Shown piece after piece: positions 2,679 to 62,934 of a DNA stretch of 64,000 nt; the first letter of the stretch is position 1, and each line of letters starts with the position of its first letter. The position numbers were made by a program, and so were the translations under genes. This stretch comes from Sandaracinus sp. (GTDB lineage: Bacteria > Myxococcota_A > Polyangia > Polyangiales > Houyiibacteriaceae): positions 1 to 64,000 of the forward strand of contig PABA01000154.1 in assembly GCA_002699025.1 (NCBI GenBank), in the 5' to 3' direction. Under the pieces are notes generated by a model. The model did not search any database. It was not told the origin of the DNA and was given only the letters and a program-made list of their open reading frames with translations.

Positions 2679-4201
2679 GCTCCCCCGCCGCAGGCGAAGT
2701 CGCCCGCGCAGTCCTCGTCGGCGCAGTCGACCCGGCCGTCGCCGTCGTCGTCCATGCCGTCGTCGCAGCGCGCCTCGAAGCACGGCGCCTGGAGCGCGCA
2801 GTCCGCGTCCATGCAGTCGGCCACGCCGTCGCCGTCCTCGTCGCCCTCCACGTCGCAGAGCTCGCGGCAGGCGTCGTCGAAGGCGCAGTCGAGGTCCGCG
2901 CAGTCCGTCTGCCCGTCTCCGTCGTCGTCCATGCCGTCGTCGCAGGCGTCCTCACACGCCCCGACGCAGATCGCGGCGAGCTCGGTCCGGGCCCGGCGCC
3001 GGCGGGGCAGCGTCTCGGCGATCTCCGCGACGAGCTCCCCCTCGACGAAGGCCTGCACCTCCACGGGCGTGAGCGACTCGCCGTCGAAGTTCAGCGCGAA
3101 GAAGTGGTAGCGCCCGGGCGGCGGCGTCATGAAGACCACGTTCTCGACCGTGCCCGGGCCGCCCGTGGTGTCGTCCCGATCCAGCATGCCGCCGTCGGCG
3201 TCGCGGTTCGCGTAGTAGATCTCGCTCCCCGCCGGCGTGAGCACGTGCAGGTCGATGTCGCCCGGGAGATCCCAGCGGAGCGTGAAGCGGAGCTCGCCGT
3301 CCGCGAGGCAGAAGCCGTCGATGCACTGGCGCCCCGCGTCGCAGTCCATGTCCTCCATGCACTCGTCGCCGCTGCCGGTCACGCAGTTCCCCATCGCGTC
3401 GCAGCGGCCGCCCGGGCAGACGGTCCCCTCGGGCGCGTAGGCGACGGCGGAGCAGGGCGCGTCGGGCGTGCAGGCGCGCAGGCCGATCCGGCAGACCTCC
3501 TCGGTCTCGCAGAGGCGGCGCGGGCAGTCGTCCACGTCGGGCTCGCAGCCGCGGATGGGGTGGCAGCGCTCGTCTCCCGCGCAGGAGGCCTCGCGCACCT
3601 CGTAGAGGCAGACGCCGCACTCGCACACGGGCGTCGCGCAGGCGGCGGCCGGCCCGCAGTCGGCGGCCGTCGCGCACTCGTCTCCGCCGCAGGCCTCGGG
3701 CGCGTCCGGGTGGCAGGCCGGGTCCACGCAGCGCTCGTTCTGGCAAGCGAGCACCTCGCCGTCGAGGCCGCGCGGGCAGCTCACGCCGCGGCAGGCGCGG
3801 GTGAGCACGACGGTGACGGCCCCGCCGCCGGCGCCCAGCTCGTACTCGACCGCCCGGTCGAGGATCACGCGCCCGGCGTCGTCGAGGGCGGCCGCGTAGA
3901 CGCGGTAGGTGCGCGGGGCGAGGCCCTCGAGCTCGGCGAGGGGGGCGCCGCGGAGCAGGTCGCCGGGGAGGTCGCGGGTGGCGACCCGATCGACGAAGCG
4001 GAGCGTGCCGAAGTCGGCGTCCTCGACCTCGACGAGCAGCTCGGTGAACTCGACGCCGGGGAGGGCGTCGGTCTTGAGGTCGACCTGGAGCGTGGGTCCG
4101 CTGGACTCGCCGGTGCAACCCGGGGCGAACCCGAGCGGCAGACCGAGGGCGAAGCCGAGGGCGAGGCCCGTCCGGAGGAAGGAAGAGCGCGCGTCGCTCA
4201 T
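2351..4201 (-). CDS. Cys-rich outer-surface lipoprotein with Asp-rich repeats (C-terminus uncertain)
   Basis: A predicted lipoprotein starting at ATG 4201, with a signal peptide ending near FAPGC. The N-terminal domain (VDLKTDALPGVEF...) and the CRGVSCPRG hinge match the preceding gene, so the two are tandem paralogs. It continues with many Cys pairs (residues about 130-270) and a DIDLHV/GRYHFFALNFDGES region that resembles an uncharacterised secreted beta-sandwich. Three MopE-like DDGMDDDGDG..DC.D.DC Asp/Cys repeats (about 400-500) probably bind calcium. The open frame runs on to 2351 through the RluA gene. Those last roughly 110 residues look like a shadow translation, so the true protein probably ends near 2690 and a stop may have been lost or hidden by a frame error. 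Confidence 0.7.
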   Translation of the reverse strand: MSDARSSFLRTGLALGFALGLPLGFAPGCTGESSGPTLQVDLKTDALPGVEFTELLVEVEDADFGTLRFVDRVATRDLPGDLLRGAPLAELEGLAPRTYRVYAAALDDAGRVILDRAVEYELGAGGGAVTVVLTRACRGVSCPRGLDGEVLACQNERCVDPACHPDAPEACGGDECATAADCGPAAACATPVCECGVCLYEVREASCAGDERCHPIRGCEPDVDDCPRRLCETEEVCRIGLRACTPDAPCSAVAYAPEGTVCPGGRCDAMGNCVTGSGDECMEDMDCDAGRQCIDGFCLADGELRFTLRWDLPGDIDLHVLTPAGSEIYYANRDADGGMLDRDDTTGGPGTVENVVFMTPPPGRYHFFALNFDGESLTPVEVQAFVEGELVAEIAETLPRRRRARTELAAICVGACEDACDDGMDDDGDGQTDCADLDCAFDDACRELCDVEGDEDGDGVADCMDADCALQAPCFEARCDDGMDDDGDGRVDCADEDCAGDFACGGGAWRRSASSTTRRGWWSWTSPRGSRRPGATSATRAACSTRSPRSSGGPCGRSGPCISSIASRAACASSCGARRWCRSGRRTCGRGGSATSRSCTACPAGRRSRSTRRSAT

Positions 4202-5010
4202 GGCGCCCCCGTCTCGCAGAGCCCGGCGCCGTCGCAGACGCCCTCGCGCCCGCGCTCCTCGCAGGGCGTGCCGTTCACCAGGAAGCCCGCCGGCTCGCAC
4301 GCCTCCGGGTCGTCGCAGCGGGTCAGGCCGAGCGTACAGGGCTCCCCCTCGAGGGGGCACTCGCTCCGCACGCAGAAGGTCGGGTCGACCACGCAGCCCC
4401 GGTCCGGGTCGCACCACTGGTCCGCCGCGCAGGCCGTCCGGTCGCCCCGCTCGAGGCAGGCGCCGGCGATGCAGCGCACGCTCGCGCAGCCGGCCACGGG
4501 CGCGGCGCAGTCGCCGACGGTGCCGCAGCCGGTCGCGCAGGCGTCGGGCTCCTCGGCGGTGCAGCGCGGGTTGCCACAGACGCCGTCGATGCAGGCCTGG
4601 TCCGGCGCGCAGGCGACGCCGCGGCAGGTGCGCGAGAGGACGATGGTGACGCGCTGGTCCTCGCGCACCTCCACGAAGGCCGGGCGCGAGACGAGCGGGC
4701 GACCGTCGGCCCCGAGGGCGGTCACGAAGAGCCAGGTGTCGCCGGGCGCGACGTTCGGGAAGGTCGCCGCCTCGATGGGGGCGTCCAGCCCGACGCCGCG
4801 GCGCACCGGGATCACCTCGCGGACGCGCTGCATGGGCGCGGCCGTGGGGAGGTCCTTCGAGAGATCGACCTGCAGCCCGTGGAGCTCGACGCCGGCGACG
4901 AGGTCCGTCTCGACGTCGACGTCGAGGCGATGGGTCGGGTCGCCGCAGCCAGGCGCGCTCAGGGCGAAGGGCGCGGCGAGGGCGATGAGCGCGATCGGAG
5001 GGGCTCGCAC
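4198..5010 (-). CDS. Cys-rich lipoprotein, paralog of the downstream gene
   Basis: A 270-aa predicted lipoprotein: VRAPPIALIALAAPFALSAPGC is a signal sequence with a lipid-attachment Cys. The N-terminal domain begins VDVETDLVAGVELHGLQVDL, parallel to VDLKTDALPGVEFTELLVEV in the next gene. Both share an (A/S)RTCRGVxC hinge followed by tandem Cys-rich segments. The GTG at 5010 is the preferred start; GTG 5025 is an alternative. Its stop overlaps the next start by 4 nt (ATGA), so the two are translationally coupled. Likely surface-exposed; no enzymatic motif. Function unknown. Confidence 0.7.
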   Translation of the reverse strand: MRAPPIALIALAAPFALSAPGCGDPTHRLDVDVETDLVAGVELHGLQVDLSKDLPTAAPMQRVREVIPVRRGVGLDAPIEAATFPNVAPGDTWLFVTALGADGRPLVSRPAFVEVREDQRVTIVLSRTCRGVACAPDQACIDGVCGNPRCTAEEPDACATGCGTVGDCAAPVAGCASVRCIAGACLERGDRTACAADQWCDPDRGCVVDPTFCVRSECPLEGEPCTLGLTRCDDPEACEPAGFLVNGTPCEERGREGVCDGAGLCETGAP

Positions 5011-5172
5011 GGCGCGAGCGTACACCGAACGGGGGCGGCCGGCCCGAGCTGCAGCGCGTGCAGCTCTTCGCTGAGCGAGGCGCAGTCGACGGGGAGGGGA
5101 CGCCTCCCCAGGATCGGGTCGATCGGGTCGATCAGGTCGAGCGCGTCCGCGCGACGCGGCGAGGAGGAGACG

Positions 5173-5904
5173 ATGGGACACGCGCTGGTGACGGGAGCCT
5201 CGCGAGGCATGGGGCTCGAGTGGTGCCGCCAGCTGGCACGCCGGGGGGATCGGGTCGTGCTCACGGCGCGGAGCGCGGGGAAGGCCGAGGCGGCGGCGGC
5301 GCGGCTCGCGGAGGAGGGGCTCGAGGTGCTCCCGCGGGTCCTCGACGTCGGGGACGAGGCGTCCATGGCGGCCCTCGCCGGGCGCCTCCGGGAGGAGCTC
5401 GGGCACCTCGACCTCGTCGTGAACAACGCCGGCATCAACCCCAAGGACGCGAAGGCGCCGGGGGTCTTCGAGAGCACCTTCCAGCTCGCGAAGCTCGACC
5501 CGGACGAGGTGCTCCGCTGCATCCGCCTCAACGGCGTGATGCCCGTCGTGCTGGTGAAGCACCTGCTGCCCTTGCTCGAGGCCGCCGAGCAGCCGCTCGT
5601 CCTGAGCATCTCGTCCTGGCTCGGCTCCATCGGCGCCAAGACCATGGGCGGGCACTACGGCTACGCGACGAGCAAGGCCGCGCTGAACATGATGAACCGC
5701 GCCATGGCCCTGCAGCTGAAGGAGAAGGGCGTGGCGGCGGTGGTGGTGAACCCGGGCTGGGTCCAGACCGACATGGGGGGCGCCAAGGCCGAGCTCACGC
5801 CGGAGCGAGCGATCGGCGGCATGATCGCGAACGTCGTGGAGAAGGTCGGCCTCGAAGAGACGGGGGAGTTCTTCCAGTGGGACGGGTCGCGCCACCCCTG
5901 GTGA
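5173..5904 (+). CDS. Short-chain dehydrogenase/reductase
   Basis: A 243-aa classical SDR. The NAD(P)-binding motif TGASRGMG lies at about residues 7-14, NNAG at about 88-91, the catalytic Ser in SISSW, and the active-site YATSK (YxxxK). The C-terminal PGWVQTDMGG is typical of SDRs related to the C-factor/CsgA group, which in myxobacteria includes the developmental signal protein. Sequence alone does not settle whether this is a metabolic reductase or CsgA-like. A strong ribosome-binding site (GAGGAGGAGA) precedes ATG 5173. It stands alone on the plus strand. Upstream, three copies of a 9-nt unit (GATCGGGTC, 5112-5138) could be an operator, but this is speculative. Confidence 0.88.
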   Translation: MGHALVTGASRGMGLEWCRQLARRGDRVVLTARSAGKAEAAAARLAEEGLEVLPRVLDVGDEASMAALAGRLREELGHLDLVVNNAGINPKDAKAPGVFESTFQLAKLDPDEVLRCIRLNGVMPVVLVKHLLPLLEAAEQPLVLSISSWLGSIGAKTMGGHYGYATSKAALNMMNRAMALQLKEKGVAAVVVNPGWVQTDMGGAKAELTPERAIGGMIANVVEKVGLEETGEFFQWDGSRHPW

Positions 5905-5925: not shown

Positions 5926-8900
5926 TCAGCGTCGGGCGGCGAAGGCCTCCTCGAAGGGACCGCCGCCGGGGCGGAGCGCGTCCTCGAGCGTGACCGGCCG
6001 GGTCGCCTCGCCGCGGCCCGAGGGGGAGGCGAAGACCAGCGCGCCGCGGGGCATCTCGCGGACGGGCGTCCGGCCGAGCGGGTGCGCGGTGCGCCCCCAG
6101 GCCACCGGCGCCCAGTGTTCTTCCGCGTGTCCTTCGGCGTGTCTCTCGGCGTGCCTCTCGGCGGTTCTCTGGAGGTCTTCCTCGTGTCGCAGCTCGAGGC
6201 GCGCGTCGGCCTCCTCGTCGGTCTGCCCCTCGACGCGAGCGAGGCGCGCGAGCTCGGTCATGCCCTCCGCCTCGAGCGCGAGGAGCAGGCCGCCGCGCGC
6301 GTCGTTGGCGAGGGAGGCCCGCTCGGTCGCGGGGAGGCCCCGGGCGAGCACCCGTGTCCTGCCGCTCGCCGCGTCCACGCGGAGCACGCTCGTGCCGCGC
6401 CCCTCGCGGACGAGCGCGTAGAGCGCGCCCTCGGCGAGGCGGTGCGTCAGCGCGAGCACGGCGCCGGGGTCGAGGTGCACGTCGAGGGCGGTGTCGGCGT
6501 CGGTGTCGGTGTCTTGGTCGACGTGCAGCGCGTGCCGGGTCGCGCCGCGCCCGTCGAGCGGGATCGTCCAGACGCGCGCCCCCCGCGCGCTCGCCTCGAT
6601 GGCGAAGAGCGCGTTCCGGCGGGACGACCAGGCGAGCGGAGCCTCGGCGAGGCCTTCCGGGAGCCGCAGCGCGTCGTCCCGGCGCGCCGCGAGGACGCGC
6701 CCCCCTGCGAGCCGGAGCGCACCGACCACGGCGCCGCCCTCGAGCACGAGCTGGCGCGGGCTCGAGGGCATCAGCTCGGCGTCGCCCTCGCTCGCGGCGA
6801 GGAGCTCCACCTCGGGTGCGCCCAGCCAGGCGCGGGCCCGCTCGTCGACGCGCTCGCTCAGGTCGACGGCGACGCCGCGCCGGTCGACGCCGACCACGCG
6901 CGGGCGTCCCTCGAGGATCCAGGGCGCGAGGAAGGGCAGCTCGAGCCAGCCGCAGACGGCGCAGTACTCCCACGGCCAGGGGGGGCGCTCGATGGGGAAG
7001 CGGTCGACGCTCACCTTCACGCGGTAGCGGAGGTCCTGGGCGCGGTAGACGTTCGCGAGGTCCGTCGGTGCTCGCGGGCCCTCGGCGGCCTGGGCGCCGA
7101 TCGGCTGCCCGTCGACCGTGACGACGCGCGACCAGAGGACGCCGTCGAGCCCCGCCGCGCCGTCGATGGCCCCGCCGTGGCGTCGCACGGCGAAGGGCGG
7201 GGCGATGGGCGCGGCGGAGAGGGCGAGCGCGTCGGCGACGAAGTCCCAGTCGATCGCCGTCGGCGCGCCGCCCCCCGGGGCGAGGGGCGCGGTCGAGAGC
7301 CCATCGGCGGGCGGCGCCGCGCCGGCGACGTGGAGGCGCGCCCAGGCCGGATCGCCGAGGGCGTAGCGCTCGCCGCCGAGGCCGCAGTCGAAGGCGGTGG
7401 ACGCGCCGCACCAGAGGCGCCGCTCGGCGGCCGTGCCCCGGGGCGCGTCGCAGGCGCAGAAGCGGAGGCCCACCTCACCGGTGGCGCTGGCGTCCGCGTG
7501 GCCGACCGCGTCGAAGCCGACCGGGCGCGCGTAGCTGCAGTACTCGAGGCCGTAGCCGCTCGCGCCGCAGAGGCCCCCCAGCGGCGTGACGACCTCGCCC
7601 GGCGCCGGCGGGCCGAGCACGGGCTCGACCTCCGCGGAGGGGACGGGGTCGCAGGCGTCTCCGCGCCGCCACGCGTGCCGCGCGCCGATCAGCGTGCCCG
7701 GGCAAGGCGTCTCGGCGACGTAGTCGAGGTAGTCCTCCATGGAGACGTGGGGCACGCCGCCGCTCCGCTCCCACCAGGGCTCGGCGGCGAGGAGCAGCGC
7801 GTCCTCGGCTTCCTGGTTGGTGTTCCGCTGGGCCGGGTCGTGCGTGCCCCCGGGCGCCGGCGGGCCGAGCTCGGTCAGGGGCCAGGGCGCGCCTCCGGGG
7901 GCGCAGACGTCGCAGACGTCCCCGACGCCGTCGTCGTCCCGGTCGAGCTGGTCCGGGTTCGCGTCGAGGGGGCAGTTGTCCGCCGGGTCGACGACCTGAT
8001 CCCCGTCCCCGTCCATCAGGGGGACGGCCGTGCCGAGCTCCGCGGCGAGGAAGGCCGCGTTGTCGCGGGTGAAGGTCGGGGCCGAGAGGTCGAGGGCGGC
8101 GCTCTCCTTCGTGCCCGAGTGCACGCCGATGACCTGCTCGACGCCGCCCACGGTCGCGAGCACGGGTCCGCCGGAGTCGCCGGGCTGGGTGGTCGCGCCG
8201 ACGCCGATGGGCGTCTGCAGCAGCCAGGGGCGCGTCGCGTCGTCCCAGGCGCCGCAGGCCCGATCCTCCACCTGGTTGAACCAGCGCGTGAGCGGGGCCG
8301 GGCCTTCGCGCATCGTCGCGGTGGTGCCCGTCTCGTCGAAGCCCCGCCCGGCGCGCGTCACCTGCGGCGTGTCCTGCACGGGCGCGAAGCCGTGGGGCGG
8401 CGTGAGCAGCGGCGTCGCGTGGGGGAGCTGGACCGCCCCGCCGAGGTCCACGACGGCCAGGTCGGCGCCGGCCGGGTAGTAGAGGAGGGGCCCGTGGGCC
8501 TCGCCCTGGAGGAGGAGCGCGCAGTAGGAGGGCTCGGCGGCGGCCGGGCGCGGGTGCAGGGAGAGGGCGGCGGGGCCGGCCGGGATGCTCGGGAGCGGCT
8601 TCGCGCCGGCGGGGAGGCCCGCGCCGAAGGCCATGGGCGAGACCTCGACGGAGGTCGCGCAGAGGACGCAGTGGGCCGCCGTGAGCACGTGGTGGGGGCC
8701 GACGAGCGTGCCGGTGCACTCGAGCTGCGCGCCATCGGCGCGGTGGATCCGGAGGAAGGCGAGGTAGGGGCGCGCGGCGTGAGCGACGGGCGTGCCGCCG
8801 AGGAGGGGCGCGCTCGAGCCGGCCGGAGCGACCTCGCCGGCGCAGCTCGCGCTCGCCAGCGCGAGGACGCCGGCGACGAACGCGACGGCCCCGCGCCCTC

Positions 8901-9084: not shown

Positions 9085-10613
9085 GGCGCCTCCGCGAGGG
9101 CGAAGCGGAAGAGGGCGCGGCCGTCGTTGGCTGGGCCGCCGGCGCGGGCGGCGCGGGCCCAGAGGGCACCGGCGCCGAGCGCGAGGGGCGTCCGGCCGCC
9201 GGCCCAGGCGAGCCCGGGGGGCGCCTCGAGCGTCGTGCGCCGGCCCGTCTGGAGCTCCACCAGGAGGAGCGCGCGCTCCGAGAGGCGGAGCGCGGCGTAC
9301 CCCTCGCCCAGGACGAGCGGCGCGGCCGGTCCGTCCCCGAGCTCGACGCGGCGGGCGTCCTCGAGCGGCGCGCCCGCCTCGTGGGTGACCAGCGTGCGCG
9401 CCTCGAAGCGCGCCGGGTCCTCCGTCGGCGTCGCCTCGATCCACGCGACCTGCGCGCCGCCGGTGGCGAGCCGGAGCCGCTGGCGACCGGCGGCCGGGGG
9501 CGGCAGCGGCGTGGCCCGCTCTCCGTCGACGCGGAAGAGGGTGCCGAAGCGCGCGCCGACGCCCTCGGCCCAGAGCGTTCCGTCCGCGGCGAAGGCCGGC
9601 CGGGCGAGCGCGTGCGAGCGCGCGGGCGCGTCTCCCCCCAGGGCCCGGACCACGAAGCCGGCGCCCGCGTGGAGCGCGACGCGCTCCGGGCCGAGCGTGG
9701 CCACGTCGTCCGCCATCACGTCGGTGAAGGGCAGGGAGTGAGGGCGAGTGGCGAGCGCGTCGGGGGTCGGCGCGACGAGCACCCGCGGCGCCGAGAGGGC
9801 CTCGGCGCGGCGCACGACCACGGCGGCCCCGTGGGGCGAGAGGTGCGGGCCGCCGACCATGCAGCGGCTCGCCGGGACCCGCACGCGGAGAGCGAAGGCG
9901 ACCTCGCCCTCGCGCTCCACGATCGACTCCCAGACCCGCGGCGCGGCGGCGCGGCTGTAGGCGAGCTCGGCCTGGCCGCCGGCGCCTCGGCGCACGGAGA
10001 GGAGGCCGCCGAAGCCCCACCCCGTGGCCTCGGCCCAGGCGGCGTCGGCGCGGGCGCAGCGGAGCGGCGCGTCGCCTTCGCAGGGGCGGAAGCGGAGCGG
10101 CGCGACGTCGGCAGGGGGCGGGGCCTCGAGCTGGCAGTCCGCGGGCGCGGCCGCCCAGCGGGGCGCCTCGGGGGCGGGGCGCTCCGGCGTGGAGCTCTCC
10201 GGGGGGAGAGGGGGCGCGCCCGTCGCGCTCGCCGGGCCGGTCTTCGCCGCCGTCGACCCCCCCGTCACGTTCCTGCCCCCCGTGCCGCTGGCCGTCGCGT
10301 CTTCGGTCGTGCGCTCGGCCCTCGGGTCTTCGGTCATCCGCACCCCCGTCGCGGGCTCGGCCGTGCGGTCTTCGACCGTCTGCTCCTCGCTCCTGCGCTC
10401 TTCGGCCGTGCGCTGTTCGGCCGTGCGCTCTTCGCTCGTGCGCTCGAGCCCCCGCGGGCTCCGAGCGAGCGCCTCGCCCGCCGAGCGCCTCTCGGGAGCG
10501 GAGGGCGGCGCGGCCGCTCGCGGGCGCACCCCCTCGGGCGCCTCGCCTCCCGCCGGCGGCCGGGCACAGCCCGCGACCGCCAGCGCGACGAGCAGCCGCG
10601 CCGCCGCCCTCAT
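9081..10613 (-). CDS. Lipoprotein with charged linker, encoded between the two proteases
   Basis: A 510-aa predicted lipoprotein ([16 protein letters not shown]). Residues about 30-110 form an Arg/Glu/Thr-rich repetitive linker ([16 protein letters not shown]-like). The rest is a beta-rich domain of WD/propeller-like strands containing scattered Trp-Gly motifs and only a few cysteines. Its start overlaps the stop of the upstream protease (10610-13501) by 4 nt, and its stop overlaps the start of the downstream protease by 4 nt. All three are therefore one translationally coupled operon. This position suggests an accessory, inhibitor or surface anchor for the proteases, but this is inference. 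No known family is recognised. Confidence 0.75.
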
Positions 10614-37032: not shown

Positions 37033-37160
37033 GCGGGCGGTCACGATCTGCGCGGTCACGATCCGCGCGGTACGACGGGGTGCTTCGGGCCGCGCCGTCG
37101 CCAGCTTCCCGGCTGGAGTCCCGCTCCGCCGCGCCGCTGCCCGGTCGCGTTCTCCGCGCC

Positions 37161-37258
37161 ATGATCTGCGCGCCATGACCTGCGCGCCATGACCTGCGCG
37201 CCATGACCTGCGCGCCATGACCTGCGCGCCATGACCTGCGCGCCGTGACCTCGGCGCC
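37161..37258. repeat. 14-bp tandem repeat, seven units
   Basis: Unit ATGACCTGCGCGCC at 37161 (ATGATCTG..), 37175, 37189, 37203, 37217, 37231 and 37245 (GTGACC..). Related GCGGTCACGATC units occur at 37036-37070. The array lies between the transpeptidase stop and the cyclic-nucleotide-binding gene. It would frameshift any reading through it, so it is non-coding. Confidence 0.93.
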
Positions 37259-52318: not shown

Positions 52319-52912
52319 GTGGCCGACCCCGCACCCGTCGCCGAGCACGCGCGCTCGGGCTGCGCCCATGGCCCCCGCGAGCCATGGTCCCGGGGCGCCG
52401 TGTTCTCGCCGACCATCCGCTGGCTCCTCGTGGCCGTCTCCCTGGGCTTCGGCTTCCACCACCTCTCCGGGGGTCGCTGGCTCGGCCTGCTCTTCGTCGC
52501 GGGCGGCCTGCTCCTCGGCGCCGGCCACTTCCTCTACGGCTCCGTGCGCGCGGCCTTCGGGGCGCTCCGCCGCGGCGACCTCCAGCGCGCCGCGGCCCTC
52601 CTCGAGCGGACGCCCACGCGCTGGCTCACGCCCGAGACGCGCGCCTACCACGCCTGGGTCGAGGCGGCCCTCGCCGAGGCCCGGGGCCGGCTCCCGGAGG
52701 CCCGCGACGCCCTCGGCCGCGCCCTCGAGCTGCCCCTCCGCTCGGACCGCGACCGCGTCCTCGCGCTCGGCACGCTGGCGGCGATCCACGCGAAGCTGGG
52801 CGAGCGCGAGGCCGGCCTCGAGCGCCTCGCCGAGGCAGAAGCCCTCGACCCCGCTCCGCGCGTCCGGCCTCTCCTCGACCGCGTTCGGGGACAGCTCGAG
52901 AAGCGCTCCTGA
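52319..52912 (+). CDS. Small membrane protein with TPR-like domain
   Basis: A 197-aa protein. Two hydrophobic segments (about 33-50 and 54-72) are followed by a helical TPR-like region (RRGDLQRAAALLERTP ... ARGRLPEARDALGRALELP ... LGEREAGLERLAEAEALDP). The start is uncertain: GTG 52319 gives a soluble N-terminal tail, while GTG 52400 would begin just before the membrane part. No ribosome-binding site supports either. Function unknown; TPR modules usually bind partner proteins. Confidence 0.6.
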   Translation: MADPAPVAEHARSGCAHGPREPWSRGAVFSPTIRWLLVAVSLGFGFHHLSGGRWLGLLFVAGGLLLGAGHFLYGSVRAAFGALRRGDLQRAAALLERTPTRWLTPETRAYHAWVEAALAEARGRLPEARDALGRALELPLRSDRDRVLALGTLAAIHAKLGEREAGLERLAEAEALDPAPRVRPLLDRVRGQLEKRS

Positions 52913-53078
52913 GCGTGGCGTGACGCCCCGAATCGGGCTCGGGTGTGACAACCGCGTCGGGCCTCGAGGGCGCTCCGCCGTCGTGTCACCCGTTCGTCAC
53001 GCGCCGGCACGGAGCCTGCGTTGACCGCCTCCGGGTCGAGTGACACTTTGGCACGAACCTCACAGGGAGAGCATACGT

Positions 53079-55334
53079 ATGCGCACTTTCTACCGACTGA
53101 TGCTTGCCAGCGCGCTCGCGCTGGGCGCGGTCGCCTGCGGCGATGACGACGGCATGGACGTCGACGCGGGCACCGACGCTGGCGGCGGCGAGATGGACTC
53201 CGGCTCCGGCGAGATGGACGCCGGCACGGACGCCGGCGACGTCATGATGGACGCCTCCATGATGGACGATGCCTCCATGATGGACGACGGCGGCACGGAC
53301 ATGGACGCCGCCATGGACGACGGCGGCACGGACATGGACGCCGCCATGGACGACGCCGGCATGGACGCCGCCATGGACGACGCGGGCACGGACGCCGGCA
53401 TGACCATGGGCGGCGGGGCCGCCACCACGGCGCAGATCGAGGCCGTGCGCACCGCGGCCGCCTCGGCCGATGCGCACGACCCGGCCCTCGAGATCGACGA
53501 CGCCGTCGTCACCTACGTGCGCCCGGCGCTCGGGAGCGACCCGGCGGGCTTCTTCGTGCAGGCCGAGCAGGCGGGCCCGGCGCTCTTCGTGGCCGTCGAT
53601 CCGACCGGCCTCACGCCCGTGCCCATGCCCGGCGACGTCGTGGACTTCGACGTGAGCGCGACCGAGGTCGACACCGACGAGATCGTGCGCGCGACCACCA
53701 TCACCGGCTGGAACGTCGACGCGAGCGGCGTGGACCTGACCTTCCTGGTGCAGGACCTCTCGGCGGCGGCCGACGCCAACGACCCGAGCGTCTACGAGAG
53801 CGAGCTCATCGAGATCGACGGCACGCTCAGCGGTGATTCGAGCTTCGCGGGCACGGACCACCGGTCCTTCCGCCTCGTGACGAGCGCGCTGGACGACGAG
53901 AACCTCCTCTTCCGCACGACCACCGCCATCATCGACGCCCTCGGCCTCGAGGACGGCTGCGCGCTCGAGATCGGCCCCTCGCCCATGTGGCGCTTCCAGG
54001 CGCGCTCGCAGGTGATGGGCTACCGGGACACGGACTTCACGGCGACCTGCGCGGCGCCGACCGTCACCGGCGCGGCGGCCGCGGACAACGTCACCGTGGT
54101 CGTCCAGTTCAGCCGCCCGCTCGACCCGGCCACCGTCGCCGTGGGCGACTTCATGTTCACCGGCGGCACGTCGATGCTCATGGCCACCGACGTCGTGGTC
54201 GCGGCCGACGGCCTCAGCGCCACGCTCACGACGAGCTCCCAGGAGGACGGCGCCGAGTACACGGTCACCGTCACCGGCGTGGACGACGTCCTCGGCACCG
54301 CCATCGACGACACCATGAACACGGCGATGTTCACGGGCGTCCCCCCGGCCGCGACCCCGGGCGCGGAGGGCGACATCGTGATCACGGAGATCCTCTACAA
54401 CGCCGCCGGCGACGAGGGGGACCGCGAGTGGGTCGAGCTCCACAACCCGAGCACGGACACGACCTACAGCTTGTTCGAGTGCGTGTTCTCCGATGGGTCG
54501 ACCGATACGTCGATCTCCGCTCTGATTCTGCGTCCCGGCGAGTACGCGGTTCTCGGCGGGCCCCTCTCGGAGGCCGATCCCGTTCAGGACTTCGACTTCG
54601 CCCTGTCGAACGGCGGCGAAGATCTGACGCTCAGCTGCGGTGGCACGACCATCGACGCCGTCAGCTACACGGGGTCGACGCCCTGGCCCAGCAGCACCAA
54701 CGGCGCGAGCATCCAGCTCGAAGACGTGGCTGCAGACAACAACGTCGGCGTCAACTGGTGCCTCGCGCCCGAGGTCGTGACCTTCGGCACGGAGGGTCAG
54801 CGCGGCACGCCGGGGGCGCCCAGCAACTGTGGTGCTCCCGAAGGACCGTCGCTCATCTTCTCCGAGTACATCGAGTCGGGGAGCGCGAAGGCCATCGAGA
54901 TCACCAACATGGGCGGAATGGCTCAGGCGCTTCCGGACTGCGAGGTTCGCCTCTACTCCAACGCGAACACGACGGCCGGCTCGACCTATGCGTTCGTCGG
55001 CGAGGGCTCGTTGATGCCCGGCGAGTCGTTCGTCATCTGCAGCAGTGGTGTCCCGGCCGAGCATTGCGATGTCACGAACAGTGTTGCCAACTACAACGGC
55101 AACGACGCGCTCGAGGTCGTCTGCGGCGGCTCGCTGATGGACTCCATCGGCACGCTGGGCGGCAACACCGTGTACGAGGATCCGAGTGGGACGCTGAGCA
55201 CCGAGGATCACACGCTCACGCGCGAGTGCTCGGTCTTCGTGGGCGACCGCGACAGCATGGACGCCTATCAGCTGATCGACTGGACCGGCATGGCATCGAT
55301 CGACTTCACGGGCCTCGGAGAGCACTGCCCCTGA
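53079..55334 (+). CDS. Lipoprotein with Asp/Met-rich repeats and two lamin-tail (LTD) domains
   Basis: A 751-aa predicted lipoprotein (LASALALGAVAC). Residues about 22-110 are Asp/Met/Ala/Gly-rich repeats (DAAMDDGGTDM-like, encoded by tandem DNA repeats at about 53240-53400). Next come a beta-rich region with bacterial Ig-like features (about 115-440, ending in VVVQFSRPLDPATVAVGDFMF, the SbsA Ig-like type) and two LTD domains: IVITEILYNAAGDEGDREWVELHN (about 428-560) and LIFSEYIESGSAKAIEITN (about 588-745). LTD domains occur in many secreted bacterial proteins, often with nucleases, but no nuclease motif is visible. A clear terminator follows. Confidence 0.85.
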   Translation: MRTFYRLMLASALALGAVACGDDDGMDVDAGTDAGGGEMDSGSGEMDAGTDAGDVMMDASMMDDASMMDDGGTDMDAAMDDGGTDMDAAMDDAGMDAAMDDAGTDAGMTMGGGAATTAQIEAVRTAAASADAHDPALEIDDAVVTYVRPALGSDPAGFFVQAEQAGPALFVAVDPTGLTPVPMPGDVVDFDVSATEVDTDEIVRATTITGWNVDASGVDLTFLVQDLSAAADANDPSVYESELIEIDGTLSGDSSFAGTDHRSFRLVTSALDDENLLFRTTTAIIDALGLEDGCALEIGPSPMWRFQARSQVMGYRDTDFTATCAAPTVTGAAAADNVTVVVQFSRPLDPATVAVGDFMFTGGTSMLMATDVVVAADGLSATLTTSSQEDGAEYTVTVTGVDDVLGTAIDDTMNTAMFTGVPPAATPGAEGDIVITEILYNAAGDEGDREWVELHNPSTDTTYSLFECVFSDGSTDTSISALILRPGEYAVLGGPLSEADPVQDFDFALSNGGEDLTLSCGGTTIDAVSYTGSTPWPSSTNGASIQLEDVAADNNVGVNWCLAPEVVTFGTEGQRGTPGAPSNCGAPEGPSLIFSEYIESGSAKAIEITNMGGMAQALPDCEVRLYSNANTTAGSTYAFVGEGSLMPGESFVICSSGVPAEHCDVTNSVANYNGNDALEVVCGGSLMDSIGTLGGNTVYEDPSGTLSTEDHTLTRECSVFVGDRDSMDAYQLIDWTGMASIDFTGLGEHCP

Positions 55335-55354
55335 GTCCGCCTCGCTGACCACGT

Positions 55355-55392
55355 GAAGACGCCGGCGCGCCCTCGGGCCCGCCGGCGTCTTC
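55355..55392 (+). terminator. 13-bp stem terminator after the LTD lipoprotein
   Basis: Perfect 13-bp arms GAAGACGCCGGCG / CGCCGGCGTCTTC flank a 12-nt loop, 20 nt after the stop codon. CGTTTCGG follows. This matches a typical intrinsic terminator apart from the weak U-run. Confidence 0.75.
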
Positions 55393-55433
55393 CGTTTCGG
55401 AAGGTCGGCGCGGAGCTCGGCGTACCCTGGCGC

Positions 55434-55769
55434 GTGCTCTTCCTCGTGGCCGGGGTGGTCGGGCTGGGGGTCATGACCGCGGGGGTCGTGGCCTGGGCGC
55501 GTTGGGTGTGGCGGCACCCGCGGGCGTGCCGGGTGTGGCGTGGGGTCGCCGGGGTCGCGGTGCTCGGCGTCGCGCTGCCGGCGGGGCTCGGCGGCTACGG
55601 CGTCGTGATGGGGCGGCGCGCGCTCCGGTTGGAGACGGCGACCGTGGTCGGGCGCGGCCTCGCGGAGGCGATGCGCTGCCTCGCGTCGGGCGGGCTGCTC
55701 TTCCTCGTCCTGGCGGCGCTCCTCGGCGTCGCCACGGCCGGCGTCTCCCTCCGCCCCGCCCGCCGCTGA
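55434..55769 (+). CDS. Small membrane protein, hypothetical
   Basis: A 111-aa open frame with GTG 55434 and three hydrophobic segments (about 1-20, 38-60 and 85-105). The overall shape vaguely recalls the membrane core of MotA/TolQ/ExbB-like proteins, but no signature is present. An earlier GTG at 55353 would read through the terminator hairpin and is not preferred. It may be a real small membrane protein or just GC-rich coding-like sequence. Confidence 0.4.
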   Translation: MLFLVAGVVGLGVMTAGVVAWARWVWRHPRACRVWRGVAGVAVLGVALPAGLGGYGVVMGRRALRLETATVVGRGLAEAMRCLASGGLLFLVLAALLGVATAGVSLRPARR

Positions 55770-55918
55770 CGCGCTGGCGTTCCCGCCTCCCGTCATCCCC
55801 GACGGTGGCGACTCCTCCCCGACCGAGGCGACGACCCGCCCGAGCTCCCGAACCCCCGCGGCCCAACGCCGCCCGTCGCCGAGAGGCGACGAAGCTCGCC
55901 CCCGCCCGAAGGACGTGC

Positions 55919-56611
55919 TCAGACGCCTCGGCGGTCGCCCCAGAGGCTCACGTGGAGGCGCCAGCCGAGGCGCCAGCCCTCCTGCACGCAGACCTCGGAC
56001 AGGGCCCGGCCGCGCTCGGCGAGGGTGGCGGCGTCGGTGCCCTCGGGCATGAGCCAGACGCGCTCGGGCGGGAGCGCGAGCTCGCTCACCCGCGCGCGGA
56101 GCTCCTCGAGGTCGGCCTCGCTGGCGATGACGAACTTGAAGACGGCGTCCTCGCGCCGGGCGAAGGCGCGGAGCACGTCGGGGCGCCAGCGCTTGTCGAG
56201 CGGGTTGCCGCTGCTGGCGAGCTTGGGGGAGACGTTCCACTGGGCGACGCCCTCAAGCTCGGGCGGGAGCGTGCCGGCGGTCTCGACCTCGACGCGCTTG
56301 CCGAGGCGCGGGAGGAGCGCGGCGAGGGCGTCGCGCTGGAGGAGCGGCTCGCCGCCGGTGACGACGAGGTTCTGCGGAGCGCGCGCGACGAGGTCGGCGG
56401 CGAGCGCGTCGAGGTCCCAGGCGCGGAGCTCGTCCTCGAGGCGGTGGCGCTCCCAGTCCCAGGTGTAGGGCGTGTCGCACCAGGCGCAGCGGAGGTTGCA
56501 GTGGCCGAGGCGCAGGAAGGTGCTCGGCGTCCCGGCGCTCGGCCCCTCGCCCTGCACGGAGTCGAAGATCTCCGAGACCAGCAGCCGGTCCTTCGCGATG
56601 CGGAGCTTCAC
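55919..56611 (-). CDS. queE: 7-carboxy-7-deazaguanine synthase
   Basis: A 230-aa radical SAM enzyme that converts 6-carboxytetrahydropterin to 7-carboxy-7-deazaguanine for queuosine and other 7-deazapurines. Signatures: IFDSVQGEGPSAGTPSTFLRLGHCNLRCAWCDTPYTW (CxxxCxxC at about 38-45), TGGEPLL, VETAGTLPPE and SPKL.SSGNPLDKRW. Length and motifs match the QueE family fully. Its partners QueC and QueD are not in this window. Confidence 0.94.
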   Translation of the reverse strand: MKLRIAKDRLLVSEIFDSVQGEGPSAGTPSTFLRLGHCNLRCAWCDTPYTWDWERHRLEDELRAWDLDALAADLVARAPQNLVVTGGEPLLQRDALAALLPRLGKRVEVETAGTLPPELEGVAQWNVSPKLASSGNPLDKRWRPDVLRAFARREDAVFKFVIASEADLEELRARVSELALPPERVWLMPEGTDAATLAERGRALSEVCVQEGWRLGWRLHVSLWGDRRGV

Positions 56612-56741
56612 GAGGCACAGCTTGCGGGGGGTGGCCCGGTTGTCGAGTCGGCGCCGCCTCGCCTACCGTGGGGGCCATCGCCCGACGAGGAGCGGCCGCG
56701 CGGGGTGTGCGGCGCGACGACGCCTGGGTGAGGGGGTTGGA

Positions 56742-57140
56742 ATGAAGAGCTTCTTTCCGTTCTTCGCCGCGGCCGGGCTGATGCTCGCGCAGGCGTGCTG
56801 CGATTGTCCCTGCGCCGAGCCGCCGCCGATTGCGCCCGAGAGCGAGACCGCGGGCGGCGAGTCCACCGAGCCGGCGGCGGGGGGCACGACCACGAGCGCG
56901 GCGCCCGCGACGGCCAGCGCCGCCGAGGTGAACGAGGCGCGGGCCGTCGAGATCGCCTTCCAGCTCGCCGAGCAGGAGGGCTACGACCCGATGGAGTACA
57001 GCGACGTCGTGGTCCACCCCGACGGCGATACCCACTGGGAGGTGCAGCTTCGCAAGCCGCGCATCCTCCGCTTCCTGCAGGTGCGGGTCGACCGCCAAAG
57101 CGGCGCGGCCGAGCTCCGGGTGCTCACGAACACGCAGTGA
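56742..57140 (+). CDS. Small lipoprotein
   Basis: A 132-aa predicted lipoprotein (SFFPFFAAAGLMLAQACC) with an unusual cluster of Cys after the lipidated Cys (CCDCPC). A Ser/Thr/Ala/Glu linker (about 25-60) follows, then a compact folded domain (NEARAVEIAFQLAEQEGYDPMEYSDVVV...HWEVQLR) with an alpha/beta pattern. The HWEVQL segment recalls small periplasmic ligand-binding folds, but no family is recognised. It is divergent from queE and convergent with the ThiF-like gene. Confidence 0.72.
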   Translation: MKSFFPFFAAAGLMLAQACCDCPCAEPPPIAPESETAGGESTEPAAGGTTTSAAPATASAAEVNEARAVEIAFQLAEQEGYDPMEYSDVVVHPDGDTHWEVQLRKPRILRFLQVRVDRQSGAAELRVLTNTQ

Positions 57141-57162
57141 GCGTGGCCTCGGGCCGCCGGGG

Positions 57163-57795
57163 TCAGGCGTCGTGGAGCCGAAGGTCGCCGAAGGTGAGCT
57201 GGAGCCCGCGCTGCTCGCCGGTCGCGAGGAAGCGGAGCGCCAGCTCGGCGGCGAGCGCGGCGGTCACGAGCGCGAGGTTCCGGGCGAGCGGGTAGTCGCA
57301 GACGTCGTCGCCGGCCGCGCTCGGCACCCGGTAGCCTGGATCCCAGACGAGCTCGGCGTAGTCCGCGGCGAGCCCTGCGTGGAGGCAGGGCAGGCCGAGC
57401 TCGGCGGCGCCGGCCTGGACCGCGGCGCGCCCGACGCTGTTGTCGAAGGCGTCGATCACCAGGTCGCTCCCGCGCAGGAGGGCGCGCGCGTTCCGCGGGA
57501 CCAGCTCCTTCACCCGGGCGTCGACCTGCGTACCGACGGCGCGGAACACGAGGTGCGCGAGGAGCTTGGCCTTGGGGGCGCCCACGTCCGCGCGCGTCCA
57601 GACCTGCGTGGAGAGGTTGCGCTCCTCGACGCGGTCCCGGTCGACGACGCGCAGGCCGCCCACGCCGGCCCGCGCGAGCGAGTCGACCAGGTGCGAGCCG
57701 AGGGCGCCGGCGCCGCAGACGGTCACCGTCGCCGCCTTCAGGCGACGCATGGCGTCGGGGCCGCGGAAGAGCTGCTCGTGGTGGAGGAAGGACAT
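57163..57795 (-). CDS. ThiF/E1-like adenylating enzyme
   Basis: A 210-aa E1-like protein. CGAGALGSH (about 27-35) is the ATP-binding loop. DRDRVEERNLSTQ (about 52-64), with the conserved Asp and Asn, then KAKLLA (Lys75 region) and LVIDAFDNSVGR (Asp116) complete the adenylation signature. A single Cys after the core (DDVCDYPLARN, Cys166) could be catalytic, but this is uncertain. E1-like proteins adenylate the C-terminal Gly of a ubiquitin-like partner. Last gene of the block 57163-63638, which also has the 66-aa protein at 63264 that ends in Gly. Convergent with the small lipoprotein gene (22-nt gap). Confidence 0.83.
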   Translation of the reverse strand: MSFLHHEQLFRGPDAMRRLKAATVTVCGAGALGSHLVDSLARAGVGGLRVVDRDRVEERNLSTQVWTRADVGAPKAKLLAHLVFRAVGTQVDARVKELVPRNARALLRGSDLVIDAFDNSVGRAAVQAGAAELGLPCLHAGLAADYAELVWDPGYRVPSAAGDDVCDYPLARNLALVTAALAAELALRFLATGEQRGLQLTFGDLRLHDA

Positions 57796-58116
57796 GGGGG
57801 GCCTCGAGTGGAACAGGGGGGGAAGGAATCGGCCTCGGGTCGTCTGCGCGGCGGCCGATGGGATGCGCTGGGGGGTCGTTCTCGGCGTGTGCCGCGTGTC
57901 GAACCGCGTCCGTCGGAACGCCTCGCGTGGTCGGGGGCGGGCTCGCCCACGACGTGCGCTCCGTGGCGGATGGCTCGCGCCCGTCGGGATGCGTGGCGAG
58001 GTCGGAGGCCGAGCCACCGTCCGCCGCCCGCCATCCGCCCGCCGTCCGCCGCGCCGACGCGCGCACCGTCGACCGCACCGTCGACCGGCGGACGACGGGG
58101 GGGGGGCGAGCCGGGC
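57796..58116. other. Intergenic region of the TROVE block, no gene recognised
   Basis: A 321-nt interval between the ThiF-like gene and the 58117-58992 gene. Short repeats are present: CCGTCCGCCGCCCGCC-type units about 58010-58050 and CGCACCGTCGACCG-type units about 58064-58092. I see no tRNA-like arm comparable to those upstream of the TROVE gene. Both could carry internal promoters. Confidence 0.45.
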
Positions 58117-58992
58117 TCAGACCCCGCCGAGGTCGTCCTCGTAGTAGTAGCCCTCGGGCGCCGTGCTCATGACGCCGACCAGGGACGCGAGGTCGAAGTC
58201 GGCGTCGCGACCCTGGAGGCAGATGGCGCCGGCCGTGCGCACGTCGAAGGCGCTCTTGGAGAGCGAGGAGACGTGGCGCCGGCCCAGCCGGTCGCGCCAC
58301 TCGACGACCAGGTCGCCGTCGCGCTCGCGGTAGGTGTCGAGCTTCCCGCCGCCGACCTCGAGCGCCTGCCCGAGCCGCCCCTCGAGCGAAGCCCGCGCCT
58401 TCGCCACGCGCTTCGCCTCCTCGACCGCGTGCCGCCAGGCGTAGGCGTCGCGGAGCTCGGGCGTGAGCCCCGGCGCGCGCAGCTCCTCGGCGCTCGCGCC
58501 GGCCGCCCGCGCCTCGCGCAGCTGCTCCGGCAGCACCGGGTCGGCGAAGCGCTCGAGGCCCTCGAACCAGAAAGACGCGCCATCGAAGCGCGCGCGCAGC
58601 GTCTCGAAGGGCGCGAGCCCCTTCGTCAGGTGCACGGGCAGCGGACCACGACGCCGGAAGCGCGCGCCGAAGCCCTCCTCGCTCACCGGCCAGGCCCACC
58701 ACGCCTTGCCCTTGGCGGGCATCAGCGCGTGCAGGCGCGCGAGGGGGAGCGAGCCGAGGTAGCGCTCGAGGTCGCGGGGCTCGGGCCGGGCGACGAGCTG
58801 GGCGCGCGCCGCGTCGATGGGCTGGAAGAGCCCCCAGCCCGCGAAGCCCGGCGGGTTCGGCCGGAAGGCGTGGACCAGCCCCTCGACGCGCACGCGCAGC
58901 GTCGCGCCCGGCACGCAGGGCGCCAGGAACCGCCGATCCCGGAGGTCGGCTTCCGCCGCCGCCAGGCGGCGCATGAGGTCACGGATCGTCAT
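58117..58992 (-). CDS. Uncharacterised protein of the TROVE/E1 block
   Basis: A 291-aa soluble protein. The N-terminal 80 residues have a short beta-rich region (TLRVRVEGLVHAFRPNPPGFAGWGLFQPID). The middle is mixed (HLTKGLAPFETLRARFDGASFWFEGLERFADPVLPEQLREAR). An alpha-rich part with a basic helix follows (EEAKRVAKARASLEGRLGQALEV), and the C-terminus resembles a compact beta domain (YRERDGDLVVEWRDRLGRRHVSSLS). It ends acidic (GYYYEDDLGGV). No family is recognised. Same strand as, and probably part of the same transcription unit as, the TROVE gene. Confidence 0.7.
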   Translation of the reverse strand: MTIRDLMRRLAAAEADLRDRRFLAPCVPGATLRVRVEGLVHAFRPNPPGFAGWGLFQPIDAARAQLVARPEPRDLERYLGSLPLARLHALMPAKGKAWWAWPVSEEGFGARFRRRGPLPVHLTKGLAPFETLRARFDGASFWFEGLERFADPVLPEQLREARAAGASAEELRAPGLTPELRDAYAWRHAVEEAKRVAKARASLEGRLGQALEVGGGKLDTYRERDGDLVVEWRDRLGRRHVSSLSKSAFDVRTAGAICLQGRDADFDLASLVGVMSTAPEGYYYEDDLGGV

Positions 58993-59584
<592 letters not shown>

Positions 59585-60397
59585 TCAGCTCGCGACCAGC
59601 CGCGCGACTAGCTCGGTCGAGGTCGCCGCGCTCTGCACGGTCGCGAAGCTCAGCGCGTTCGGGTCCACGCCGGACGCCTTCGCCGCCGCCCGGATCGCCT
59701 CGTCCCCGAGGCGCATGCCGTCCCGGAGGAAGGCCGCGCCCGGCTCGCCGTGGCGGCGCCCGCCAGCGCGGGTCCGCTTCAGCCAGAAGTGGCTCATCAC
59801 GTGGAAGACGCGACCGCACCCCCACGGGAAGCTCACGGCCACCGCGGGCGCGCCGTACTTGGCGAGGCACTCGTGGCTCGACGCCTCGACACAGACCTTC
59901 GCCTCGTCCAGCACCTCGATGGGCTCGCTCGAGCCCTCGAGCCACCACTGCGGGTCCGCACCCAGGACGACGACCTCGGACCAGAGCCCGTCCATCGTCG
60001 GCTCCACGCCGACGACCTCGTCGCCGGTCGACTTGGTCGCGCGCCGGACCATGCCCGGGAACGCGCGCTGCACCAGGCGGCTGAGCGCCCAGTCGGAGGT
60101 GACCAGGAGCGCGCCCGCGCGCACGTGCGCCTCGAGCTCCTTCAGGCGCCCGGCCGGGTAGCTGCCCGCGCAGTTCGCGAAGACGATCCGCTGCCGGAGG
60201 CGCTTCGGGTCCAGCGTGTGGGGCACGCCGAGGGCCTTCAGCACGTTCTGCACGGAGTCGTAGGTGCCCGTGTAGACGGCGACGTCCGCCTGGCGCAGCC
60301 CGTCGAGGGCCTGGAGCGTCTCCGGGCGCTGTTCGGCGTAGCGGCGGCGGACGGCCGCCGCGGAGAGCCGGTAGGCGTGCTGCATGGTGTTCTGCAT
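59585..60397 (-). CDS. Uncharacterised protein with GATase-like look, TROVE block
   Basis: A 270-aa protein. VAVYTGTYDSVQNVLKALGV, RIVFANCAGSYPAGRLKELEAHVRAGALLVTSDWALSRLV and FPWGCGRVFHVMSHFW alternate strands and helices in the way of class-I glutamine-amidotransferase-like folds (ThuA/trimerisation-type), but no catalytic triad is evident. I infer a Rossmann-like regulatory or binding protein. ATG 60397 (GAGG nearby) is the chosen start; ATG 60385 is possible. Between it and the TROVE gene lies a long hairpin (60447-60517). Confidence 0.65.
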   Translation of the reverse strand: MQNTMQHAYRLSAAAVRRRYAEQRPETLQALDGLRQADVAVYTGTYDSVQNVLKALGVPHTLDPKRLRQRIVFANCAGSYPAGRLKELEAHVRAGALLVTSDWALSRLVQRAFPGMVRRATKSTGDEVVGVEPTMDGLWSEVVVLGADPQWWLEGSSEPIEVLDEAKVCVEASSHECLAKYGAPAVAVSFPWGCGRVFHVMSHFWLKRTRAGGRRHGEPGAAFLRDGMRLGDEAIRAAAKASGVDPNALSFATVQSAATSTELVARLVAS

Positions 60398-60740: not shown

Positions 60741-62204
<1,464 letters not shown>

Positions 62205-62294
62205 TCACCTCGAGGGTGGGGAAGCGCCCGCGGACGCACCGATGCGTCGGGGCCCGCCGGAGGCGGGCGTGGGCGCGAAAGAGAGAGCCCCGTG

Positions 62295-62375
62295 GAAGCC
62301 GGCGCGGCGGTGTGGAACACGCGGGGACCGAACCTGCGACGTTCGGCTCACGAGGCCGACGTGTGGGCCGCGCAG
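62295..62375 (-). ncRNA. Degenerate tRNA-like fragment of the RNA array (element 6)
   Basis: On the minus strand, TCGGC-CTCGTGA-GCCGA makes a 5-bp anticodon-like arm (CGU, Thr-like). A T-arm-like GCAGGTTCGGTCCCCGC with one A.C mismatch follows, then CGGCTTCC as in the L motif. No acceptor partner or D arm is found. Probably a remnant of the element family. Confidence 0.35.
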
Positions 62376-62428
62376 GTCGGGCCAGGGGGCCGAAAGAGAT
62401 GGGGCGGATCGAAGCTGGGGTCGCGAGG

Positions 62429-62541
62429 ACCGCGCGAGTTCCGGGGACGGTGTACGGCCTCGGATCAGAACCGAGGCGAACGGTGTTTCAGACCGTCACG
62501 AACCCTATTCGTGTGTGTAGGTCCCTGGGGTGGGGGCGCGG
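62429..62541 (-). ncRNA. Y-stem RNA with covarying stem (element 5)
   Basis: The minus strand has GGGACCTACACAC (R side) and GTCCCCGGAACTCGCGCG (L side). GGGAC pairs with GTCCC, replacing GGAAGC/GCTTCC of the sister elements. Between them three hairpins are readable: CGAA-TAGGG-TTCG, ACGGT-CTGAAAC-ACCGT (7-nt loop with GAA, Phe-like) and GCCTCGG-TTCTGAT-CCGAGGC (T-arm-like). No 7-bp acceptor stem is seen. Confidence 0.6.
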
Positions 62542-62586: not shown

Positions 62587-62757
62587 CGTGCGAGGGGAGG
62601 AAGCGGGCCGCGAACGGCCGAACTGGCTTTTCCATTTGCCTACCGCCCGGGTGCGCACCGGAGGTGCGCGAGCGCTCGCGAGCGCGGTCGGGCGGGAAGG
62701 ATTCGAACCTCCAAGTCCTGAAAGGGACGTGTGTACGCTTCTTCTATCGGGGCACGA
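62587..62757 (-). ncRNA. Circularly permuted tRNA-like RNA, Glu UUC-like (element 4)
   Basis: Minus-strand order: R motif GAAGCGTACACAC, an anticodon-like arm GTCC-CTTTCA-GGAC (6-nt loop with UUC), T arm GGAGG-TTCGAAT-CCTTC and the acceptor 3' strand CCGCCCG. A 39-nt hairpin-containing loop comes next, then the acceptor 5' strand CGGGCGG (7 of 7 pairs), TA, D arm GGC-AAATGGAAAA-GCC, and L motif GCTTCC. The 3' half precedes the 5' half, and the RNA ends pair through GAAGC/GCTTC. This is the topology of YrlA-type Y RNAs. Confidence 0.7.
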
Positions 62758-62763
62758 TGGCGC

Positions 62764-62910
62764 TGGGGCTGCTGGTAGGATTCGAACCTACGACCTCCGG
62801 GTGATGAACCCGATTGTGTGTGTACGCTTCGGCCATCGGGGCGCGGTCGAGCCGCGCGAGTCACGGAAGCGATGCATTCACGGCGCTCTACCCACTGAGC
62901 TACAGCAGCC
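62764..62910 (-). tRNA. tRNA-Met (CAU)-like with a roughly 70-nt hairpin inserted after the D arm (element 3)
   Basis: Acceptor GCTGCTG/CAGCAGC (7 bp, plus an extra G-1:C73 pair), TA, D arm GCTC-AGTGGGTA-GAGC. The anticodon arm is TCGGG-TTCATCA-CCCGG (anticodon CAU), variable AGGTC, T arm GTAGG-TTCGAAT-CCTAC, CCA encoded at 62764-62766. Between the D arm and anticodon arm lies an insert that folds as GCTTC...GAAGC plus GCGCGG-CTCGA-CCGCGC. Position 37 is C, which is unusual. Mature tRNA would need the insert removed. Confidence 0.75.
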
Positions 62911-62934
62911 TATGTCGAAGGGGGTGACCCTCGG

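Follow-up and report, generated by a model that had tools for sequence, protein, structure and literature searches.

Y RNAs that mimic tRNA are already known, and why the bacterial ones do so is an open question. In YrlA and other bacterial Y RNAs, a basal stem with an internal loop carries a permuted tRNA-like domain, and the neighbouring gene encodes a protein with the fold of Ro60/Rsr, which combines a TROVE with a vWA domain. A further parallel is provided by SPFH/Band-7 and TROVE RNA-repair systems with tRNA-like RNAs, which Burroughs and Aravind reportedly described in 2016; by description only, these are alike in their stress or RNA-repair setting and in combining a tRNA-like RNA with a scaffold protein. 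The locus analysed here, part of a 64,000-nucleotide stretch of DNA (the window), shares the traits of bacterial Y RNAs: it lies beside a gene for a Ro60-fold protein, its units have a basal stem that is formed by their ends and interrupted by an internal loop, and they carry a tRNA-like domain. It is a Y-RNA-like array beside a divergent Ro60 and falls outside the Rfam YrlA family. The YrlA model (RF02553, gathering cut-off 69 bits) scores 35.1 bits in the window, at the frame 62853..63012, and at most 40.2 in relatives, and all Rfam Y RNA models stay below threshold in both. Compared with YrlA, the stem sequence differs, several units occur per array, the graft point is variable, many modules retain anticodon arms or mimic 23S rRNA, and the operon has a ThiF protein and a 66-aa protein where YrlA has rtcBA. 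Grafted rRNA active sites in Y-type RNAs, variable-graft arrays and an E1-like link are, to our knowledge, unreported; a literature search for such Y RNAs, whose range did not extend to key older papers, returned none.

Table 1. Features of the array and its operon, with positions in the window.
Feature	Position	Strand	Evidence or distribution
66-aa protein ending ...VRPEAVYG, ubiquitin-like candidate	63264..63464	(-)	found in 50/75 loci
Unit 1, permuted tRNA ring within stem GGAAGC/GCUUCC	63085..63218	(-)	sequence, fold, ARAGORN
Linear tRNA-Asn(GUU)-like element	62935..63076	(-)	ARAGORN, partial RF00005
Y5'...Y3' frame	62853..63012	(-)	spans Asn-like 3' half and Met-like 5' half
Linear tRNA-Met(CAU)-like element, Y hairpin inserted	62767..62910	(-)	RF00005, ARAGORN
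Permuted unit, Glu UUC-like anticodon arm (by eye)	62587..62756	(-)	sequence, fold
Element 5, complete Y-like unit	62431..62540	(-)	sequence, MFE fold, stem scan, covariation
Element 5, helix 2 5' strand, GGGAC	62521..62525	(-)	sequence, fold, covariation
Element 5, helix 2 3' strand, GUCCC (compensatory)	62444..62448	(-)	sequence, fold, covariation
Degenerate further unit (probable)	62283..62391	(-)	sequence and fold only, z -1.3, weak
Divergent Ro60-like protein, 486 aa, HEAT-like ring and vWA (DxSxS)	60744..62201	(-)	predicted fold
P269, protein of unknown function	59585..60394	(-)	6 loci
P277, conserved partner protein	58120..58992	(-)	47/75 loci
ThiF/E1-like protein	57163..58017	(-)	PF00899 101.8 bits; 43/75 loci

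The array sits between the 66-aa ORF, which ends in Gly, and the gene of the 486-aa protein (Table 1). The preliminary description of this DNA had counted five units; they are not identical, and comprise four complete Y5'/Y3' frames (63218-63085, 63012-62853, 62756-62587 and 62540-62431) and a further, degenerate frame (~62391-62283). To these are added two tRNA-like elements, 63076-62935 and 62910-62767, whose Y stem forms a hairpin inside a linear tRNA. Acceptor complementarity shows two permuted and two linear putative tRNA elements, and a scheme that made every unit a permuted tRNA of the same type was abandoned because acceptor pairing places linear and permuted elements in the same array. 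Unit 1 runs from a T-arm half through a closed acceptor (UGCGUG/CACGCA) to a D-arm half, and its ring is called as a tRNA by ARAGORN once circularised. The other permuted unit closes its acceptor with CCGCCCG/CGGGCGG, and its outer helix, CGUGC/GCACG, has changed on both strands relative to CGCGC/GCGCG. Both linear elements carry the Y hairpin between the D arm and the anticodon arm. The Asn-like element (acceptor GGGAUCG/CGAUCCC) is called tRNA-Asn by ARAGORN with a 69-nt insert and gives a partial RF00005 match of 26 bits, and the Met-like element (acceptor GGCUGCUG/CAGCAGCC) is called tRNA-Met with a 70-nt insert and scores 51.8 bits. By inspection, the same linear topology and Asn isotype recur at 5460-5600 of L008 which, together with L009, is closest to the window locus. 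The degenerate unit has an outer GCCCC/GGGGC, an inner GCGCGGC/GCCGCGC and a T-arm-like GCAGGUUCGGUCC.

Element 5 contains the first compensatory change to be recognised. Read on the minus strand, its 5' side consists of CGCGC (62540-62536, within CGCGCCCCCACCCCA), GGGAC (62525-62521) and then CUACACAC, and its 3' side of CCGUACACC, GUCCC (62448-62444) and CGGAACUCGCGCG, which ends at 62431. The MFE fold of 62431-62541 (-42.0 kcal/mol, z -2.6) pairs CGCGC with GCGCG and, past an internal loop, CC with GG and GGGAC with GUCCC, enclosing three hairpins. The counterpart of this second helix in unit 1 is GGGAAGC/GCUUCCU, of which GGAAGC/GCUUCC is paired. Three adjacent pairs differ on both strands, in register, between unit 1 and element 5: 62522/62447 goes from G-C to A-U, and both 62523/62446 and 62524/62445 go from A-U to G-C, with C62521-G62448 and G62525-C62444 the same in both units. 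The description of GGGAC/GTCCC as a replacement of the sisters' GGAAGC/GCTTCC that keeps the helix is borne out, coordinates included, as is its remark that the distal outer pairing is kept, since the CGCGC/GCGCG helix is present in element 5. It had also taken the stem for a real RNA helix with covariation inside the window; this holds, with the window alone supplying one compensatory case and the homologues being decisive.

These homologues come from 75 loci of relatives of the 486-aa protein. Stem candidates were chosen by single-strand motifs only, with no demand for pairing, which yielded 124 stems, 99 of them distinct; a scan based on pairing was kept out of the main covariation count because it demands the very pairing at issue. 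Position by position, the fixed register of helix 2 pairs in 98, 100, 99, 96, 92, 87 and 68% of stems, and other registers do not pair likewise along the helix. The covariation test called for in the preliminary description, carried out on the distinct stems as an R-scape-like APC-corrected G-test, gives the eight variable stem pairs the top eight ranks among 780 column pairs. The stem sequences are related rather than independent, and non-stem columns of the same history score far lower, with the stem pairs at 10.7-35.5 and the best non-stem pair at 10.4. In a set of 62 stems that includes phage, 94.1% of cells are paired versus 78.8 +/- 0.8% after shuffling and 26-56% when partners are slid out of register, and both sides have changed in 145 cells versus 43.7 in shuffles. 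Some helix 1 pairs are partly fixed by the search pattern and were left out of the covariation evidence; one helix 1 pair does covary as well, since the phage, which was found separately, has CGUCC/GGACG. Covariation of the stem is strong, keeps to the exact register and extends over homologues from several phyla and a phage.

The 486-aa protein next to the array was identified by its fold alone, as Pfam, NCBIfam and PDB sequence searches left it without a name. Its AlphaFold model (pLDDT 87, pTM 0.82) matches Ro60/Rsr in Foldseek with E ~1e-11, and VIA gives Z 19.0-23.4 over 417-439 residues; the human, frog and Deinococcus Ro60 structures are matched end to end (Z 20-23 over ~436 residues), whereas matches to non-Ro structures cover essentially the vWA part only (Z at most 14.3). 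The model points to a divergent protein with the full-length Ro60 fold. Like Ro60/Rsr, it has the MIDAS DxSxS motif, with D301, S303 and S305 invariant in alignment A1. It differs from them in its identity of ~15% and in being missed by both Pfam TROVE and NCBIfam models; PF05731 matches neither this protein nor any of the 23 family members. The predicted fold thereby reveals a Ro60 family that escapes the Pfam TROVE model and has links with an E1-like protein and, among the cyanobacterial loci, with the TrcR operator. The source genome has no classical TROVE gene and encodes RtcB on another contig. Because the array adjoins a Ro60-fold protein, its stem most likely serves as the handle by which bacterial Y RNAs bind Ro60, and gene linkage and the predicted fold together suggest that the adjacent protein would be the one to bind it. 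The "Y" in the original name of the stem was apt, and we consider it very probable that the array RNAs are partners of Ro60. The preliminary description had recognised neither the Ro60 character of the neighbour, nor the permuted tRNAs among the inserts, nor the rRNA mimics of homologues.

What the handles carry is more varied. ARAGORN calls a tRNA in 96 of the 201 units, 42 directly and 54 only after the insert is circularised; three sets of shuffled inserts gave no calls. The tRNA rings are opened and grafted at varying points, namely the acceptor, near or at the anticodon side, and the D loop, and permuted units retain the elbow and the T and D arms. Element 5 itself receives no tRNA call. 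Its insert consists of three hairpins with no acceptor stem, one of them, by inspection, anticodon-arm-like (ACGGU-CUGAAAC-ACCGU, with a Phe-like GAA) and another T-arm-like (GCCUCGG-UUCUGAU-CCGAGGC). By eye, the unit resembles an acceptor-grafted tRNA mimic with putative D-, anticodon- (GAA) and T-arm-like hairpins.

Several cyanobacterial inserts appear, from their sequences, to mimic parts of 23S rRNA instead: the sarcin-ricin loop (SRL) with the GTPase centre (GAC), or H69-H71. The 12-nt SRL core occurs in 20 loci, always sense and never antisense, and is followed ~70-75 nt later by the GAC motif in 17. Y-type units with an SRL lie downstream of the Ro60 gene at L013 5486, L018 10174, L029 10279, L031 7464 and in 16 other loci. 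Other cyanobacterial units carry 23S H69-H71, with the H69 loop opened and grafted onto the stem. The rRNA modules were matched to genuine cyanobacterial 23S rRNA by BLAST and alignment, and one GTPase-centre segment exceeds the Rfam LSU cut-off at 59.4 bits. The SRL/GAC unit folds with an MFE that does not improve on that of shuffles, which lends no support to rRNA-like folding there. A search of all loci for 16S decoding-site, 530-loop, anti-Shine-Dalgarno, PTC and 4.5S motifs found none in the units; one stray 4.5S-like string is present in L067. The three myxobacterial loci have neither rRNA mimics nor a TrcR site.

The gene order 66-aa protein, array, Ro60, P277 and ThiF is kept across phyla; neighbours were counted over 75 loci, several of which end at contig ends. 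The 66-aa protein terminates in RPEA(V/I/L)(Y/F)G in the copies listed, and within the family of the window organism it is found in the same three genomes as the Ro60-like gene. A small Gly-ended protein and a linked ThiF/E1 are thus both present, as for a ubiquitin-like modifier with its E1. P277 has an invariant Cys within a GICLxGxDxxFDL motif; its predicted structure finds no confident match in the PDB, where weak rows are to OB-fold and proteasomal-ATPase chains at E 0.02 or worse. A ribosomal L7/L12 paralogue is found inside the operon at L028 3214-3591 and in 16 other loci; in the Nostoc loci it is of interest that this paralogue lies beside a GTPase-centre mimic.

Stress regulation is indicated for the cyanobacterial members. 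According to the available part of PMC10272220, Anabaena TrcR represses rtcB and a 26-gene trn operon until translational stress, and its operator, TGTAGTAT, was footprinted on the -10 box of the trn operon; that part of the paper names neither the arrays nor the Ro60-like gene. Of 29 cyanobacterial loci, 26 have the same 8-mer upstream of the operon at a distance of 650 nt or less, versus 1.7 expected, and inspection of L048 and L031 places it at the -10 position. Y units lie beside or within a long tRNA array in four cyanobacterial loci, three of which have the operator upstream of the tRNA array. None of nine non-cyanobacterial loci checked has it, and TrcR regulation is claimed for the cyanobacterial members only; the claim does not extend to the window organism, a myxobacterium as judged from L008 and L009, its nearest relatives. 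In stressed cyanobacterial cocultures, a TROVE-domain gene, not necessarily the array-linked one, and rtcB were among the top-induced genes (PMC11423583).

Viruses carry relatives of the system as well. L123, a 595-kb uncultured phage (LR756511.1), encodes a Ro60-like protein of its own (46% identity) and, with it, about eight Y-like units whose tRNA mimics are of Ser and Thr type, at ~1804-5288 and 6001-7503; its outer helix is the CGUCC/GGACG noted above. An array owned by a phage likewise goes beyond the Y RNAs known so far. A second viral contig, L124 (IMGVR_UViG_3300045107_000413), has a Ro60-like gene with 49% identity, and no Y array is visible just upstream of it.

Taken as a whole, we judge it moderately probable that the locus encodes a Y-RNA-like array with a Ro60-bound handle and modules that serve as baits or sensors. 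Each unit joins a handle of two covarying helices (CGCGC/GCGCG, internal loop, variable helix 2, UACANAC) to a grafted module. Most of the modules recognised are tRNA rings whose opening lies at the acceptor, close to the anticodon arm or within the D loop, and some cyanobacterial ones are 23S SRL with GTPase centre, or H69-H71. With the handle held by the adjacent Ro60-like protein, the modules would, under translational stress, expose parts of the translation machinery to agents that cleave RNA or block translation, or else to repair enzymes. The stem, its covariation, the operon and the mimics are read from the sequences and the Ro60 fold is predicted, whereas binding of the stem by Ro60 and the bait or sensor role are inferences. 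In favour of this overall reading are also the covariation in register, the kept gene order, the ARAGORN calls that shuffles lack, and the L7/L12 paralogue and KptA/Tpt1 genes of some loci; the sub-threshold Rfam Y RNA scores, the MFE of the SRL/GAC unit and the myxobacterial loci that lack rRNA mimics and TrcR sites weigh against it. The specific role of the modules as displayed baits or sensors is plausible if not quite probable. It is favoured by the kinds of target mimicked (anticodon arms, SRL, GTPase centre, H69), by the stress operator and by the occurrence of a copy in phage. On the other side, an intact anticodon loop is missing from many permuted units, and the many units whose graft is at or near the anticodon arm cannot be decoys for anticodon nucleases; it also counts against baits that Salmonella YrlA was left uncut by a nuclease that cleaved tRNAs (PMC7790460). 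The broadest version, in which Ro60 holds, in bacteria of several phyla and in at least one huge phage, a library of tRNA mimics as bait or sensor for attackers of translation, extended by ribosome active sites and stress induction in cyanobacteria and coupled to a ubiquitin-like-E1 pair, can be put forward only tentatively. That the E1-like ThiF and the Gly-terminated 66-aa protein might mark Ro60 or its clients by conjugation is rather doubtful.

The main rival of the bait model holds that the RNAs are RYPER-type adaptors: Ro60 would bind the handle, the modules would recruit PNPase, modification enzymes or RtcB by docking rather than decoying, and Ro60 would direct decay, refolding or repair of structured RNA. 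There is precedent, which PMC8394870 and PMC7790460 summarise, in that a Deinococcus Y RNA tethers Rsr to PNPase and the YrlA tRNA domain is a substrate of tRNA-modifying enzymes, and the retained elbow and T/D arms fit as well. However, PNPase docking needs no isotype variety, intact anticodon loops, SRL/GAC or H69 mimics, and we regard this alternative as somewhat unlikely; the two models could coexist if graft points expose different faces. Many natural variants are found here on one handle, and since graft points and isotypes vary and cyanobacteria add 23S pieces, the bait, adaptor and competitor hypotheses can be separated directly. Quite improbable is the proposal that these are functional tRNA genes, in which linear Asn and Met elements would lose the Y stem and permuted elements would be processed through circles. 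Full acceptor pairing, canonical anticodon arms and the recurrence of the linear Asn topology in L008 agree with it, but the insert sits between the D arm and the anticodon arm rather than within the anticodon loop, 67 RF00005 matches above cut-off are already present in the genome, and many of the other units have rRNA in them or no acceptor stem. That the array is tRNA pseudogene debris and GC-rich hairpins whose stem is not under selection, as high GC and neighbouring tRNA halves that are not all matching partners might suggest, is refuted by stem covariation across phyla and phage, with the conserved operon and the lack of ARAGORN calls in shuffles also against it, and has a negligible chance of being correct.

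A few further features were seen. Five loci have a KptA/Tpt1 RNA 2'-phosphotransferase near the array, including L033 at 9123-9677. Elsewhere in the source genome (G000), contig C214 bears more than 20 tRNA genes in dense order at ~52475-59694, resembling cyanobacterial trn arrays, and the window itself has a 14-bp tandem repeat, CTGCGCGCCATGAC, in six or more copies at 37138-37258.
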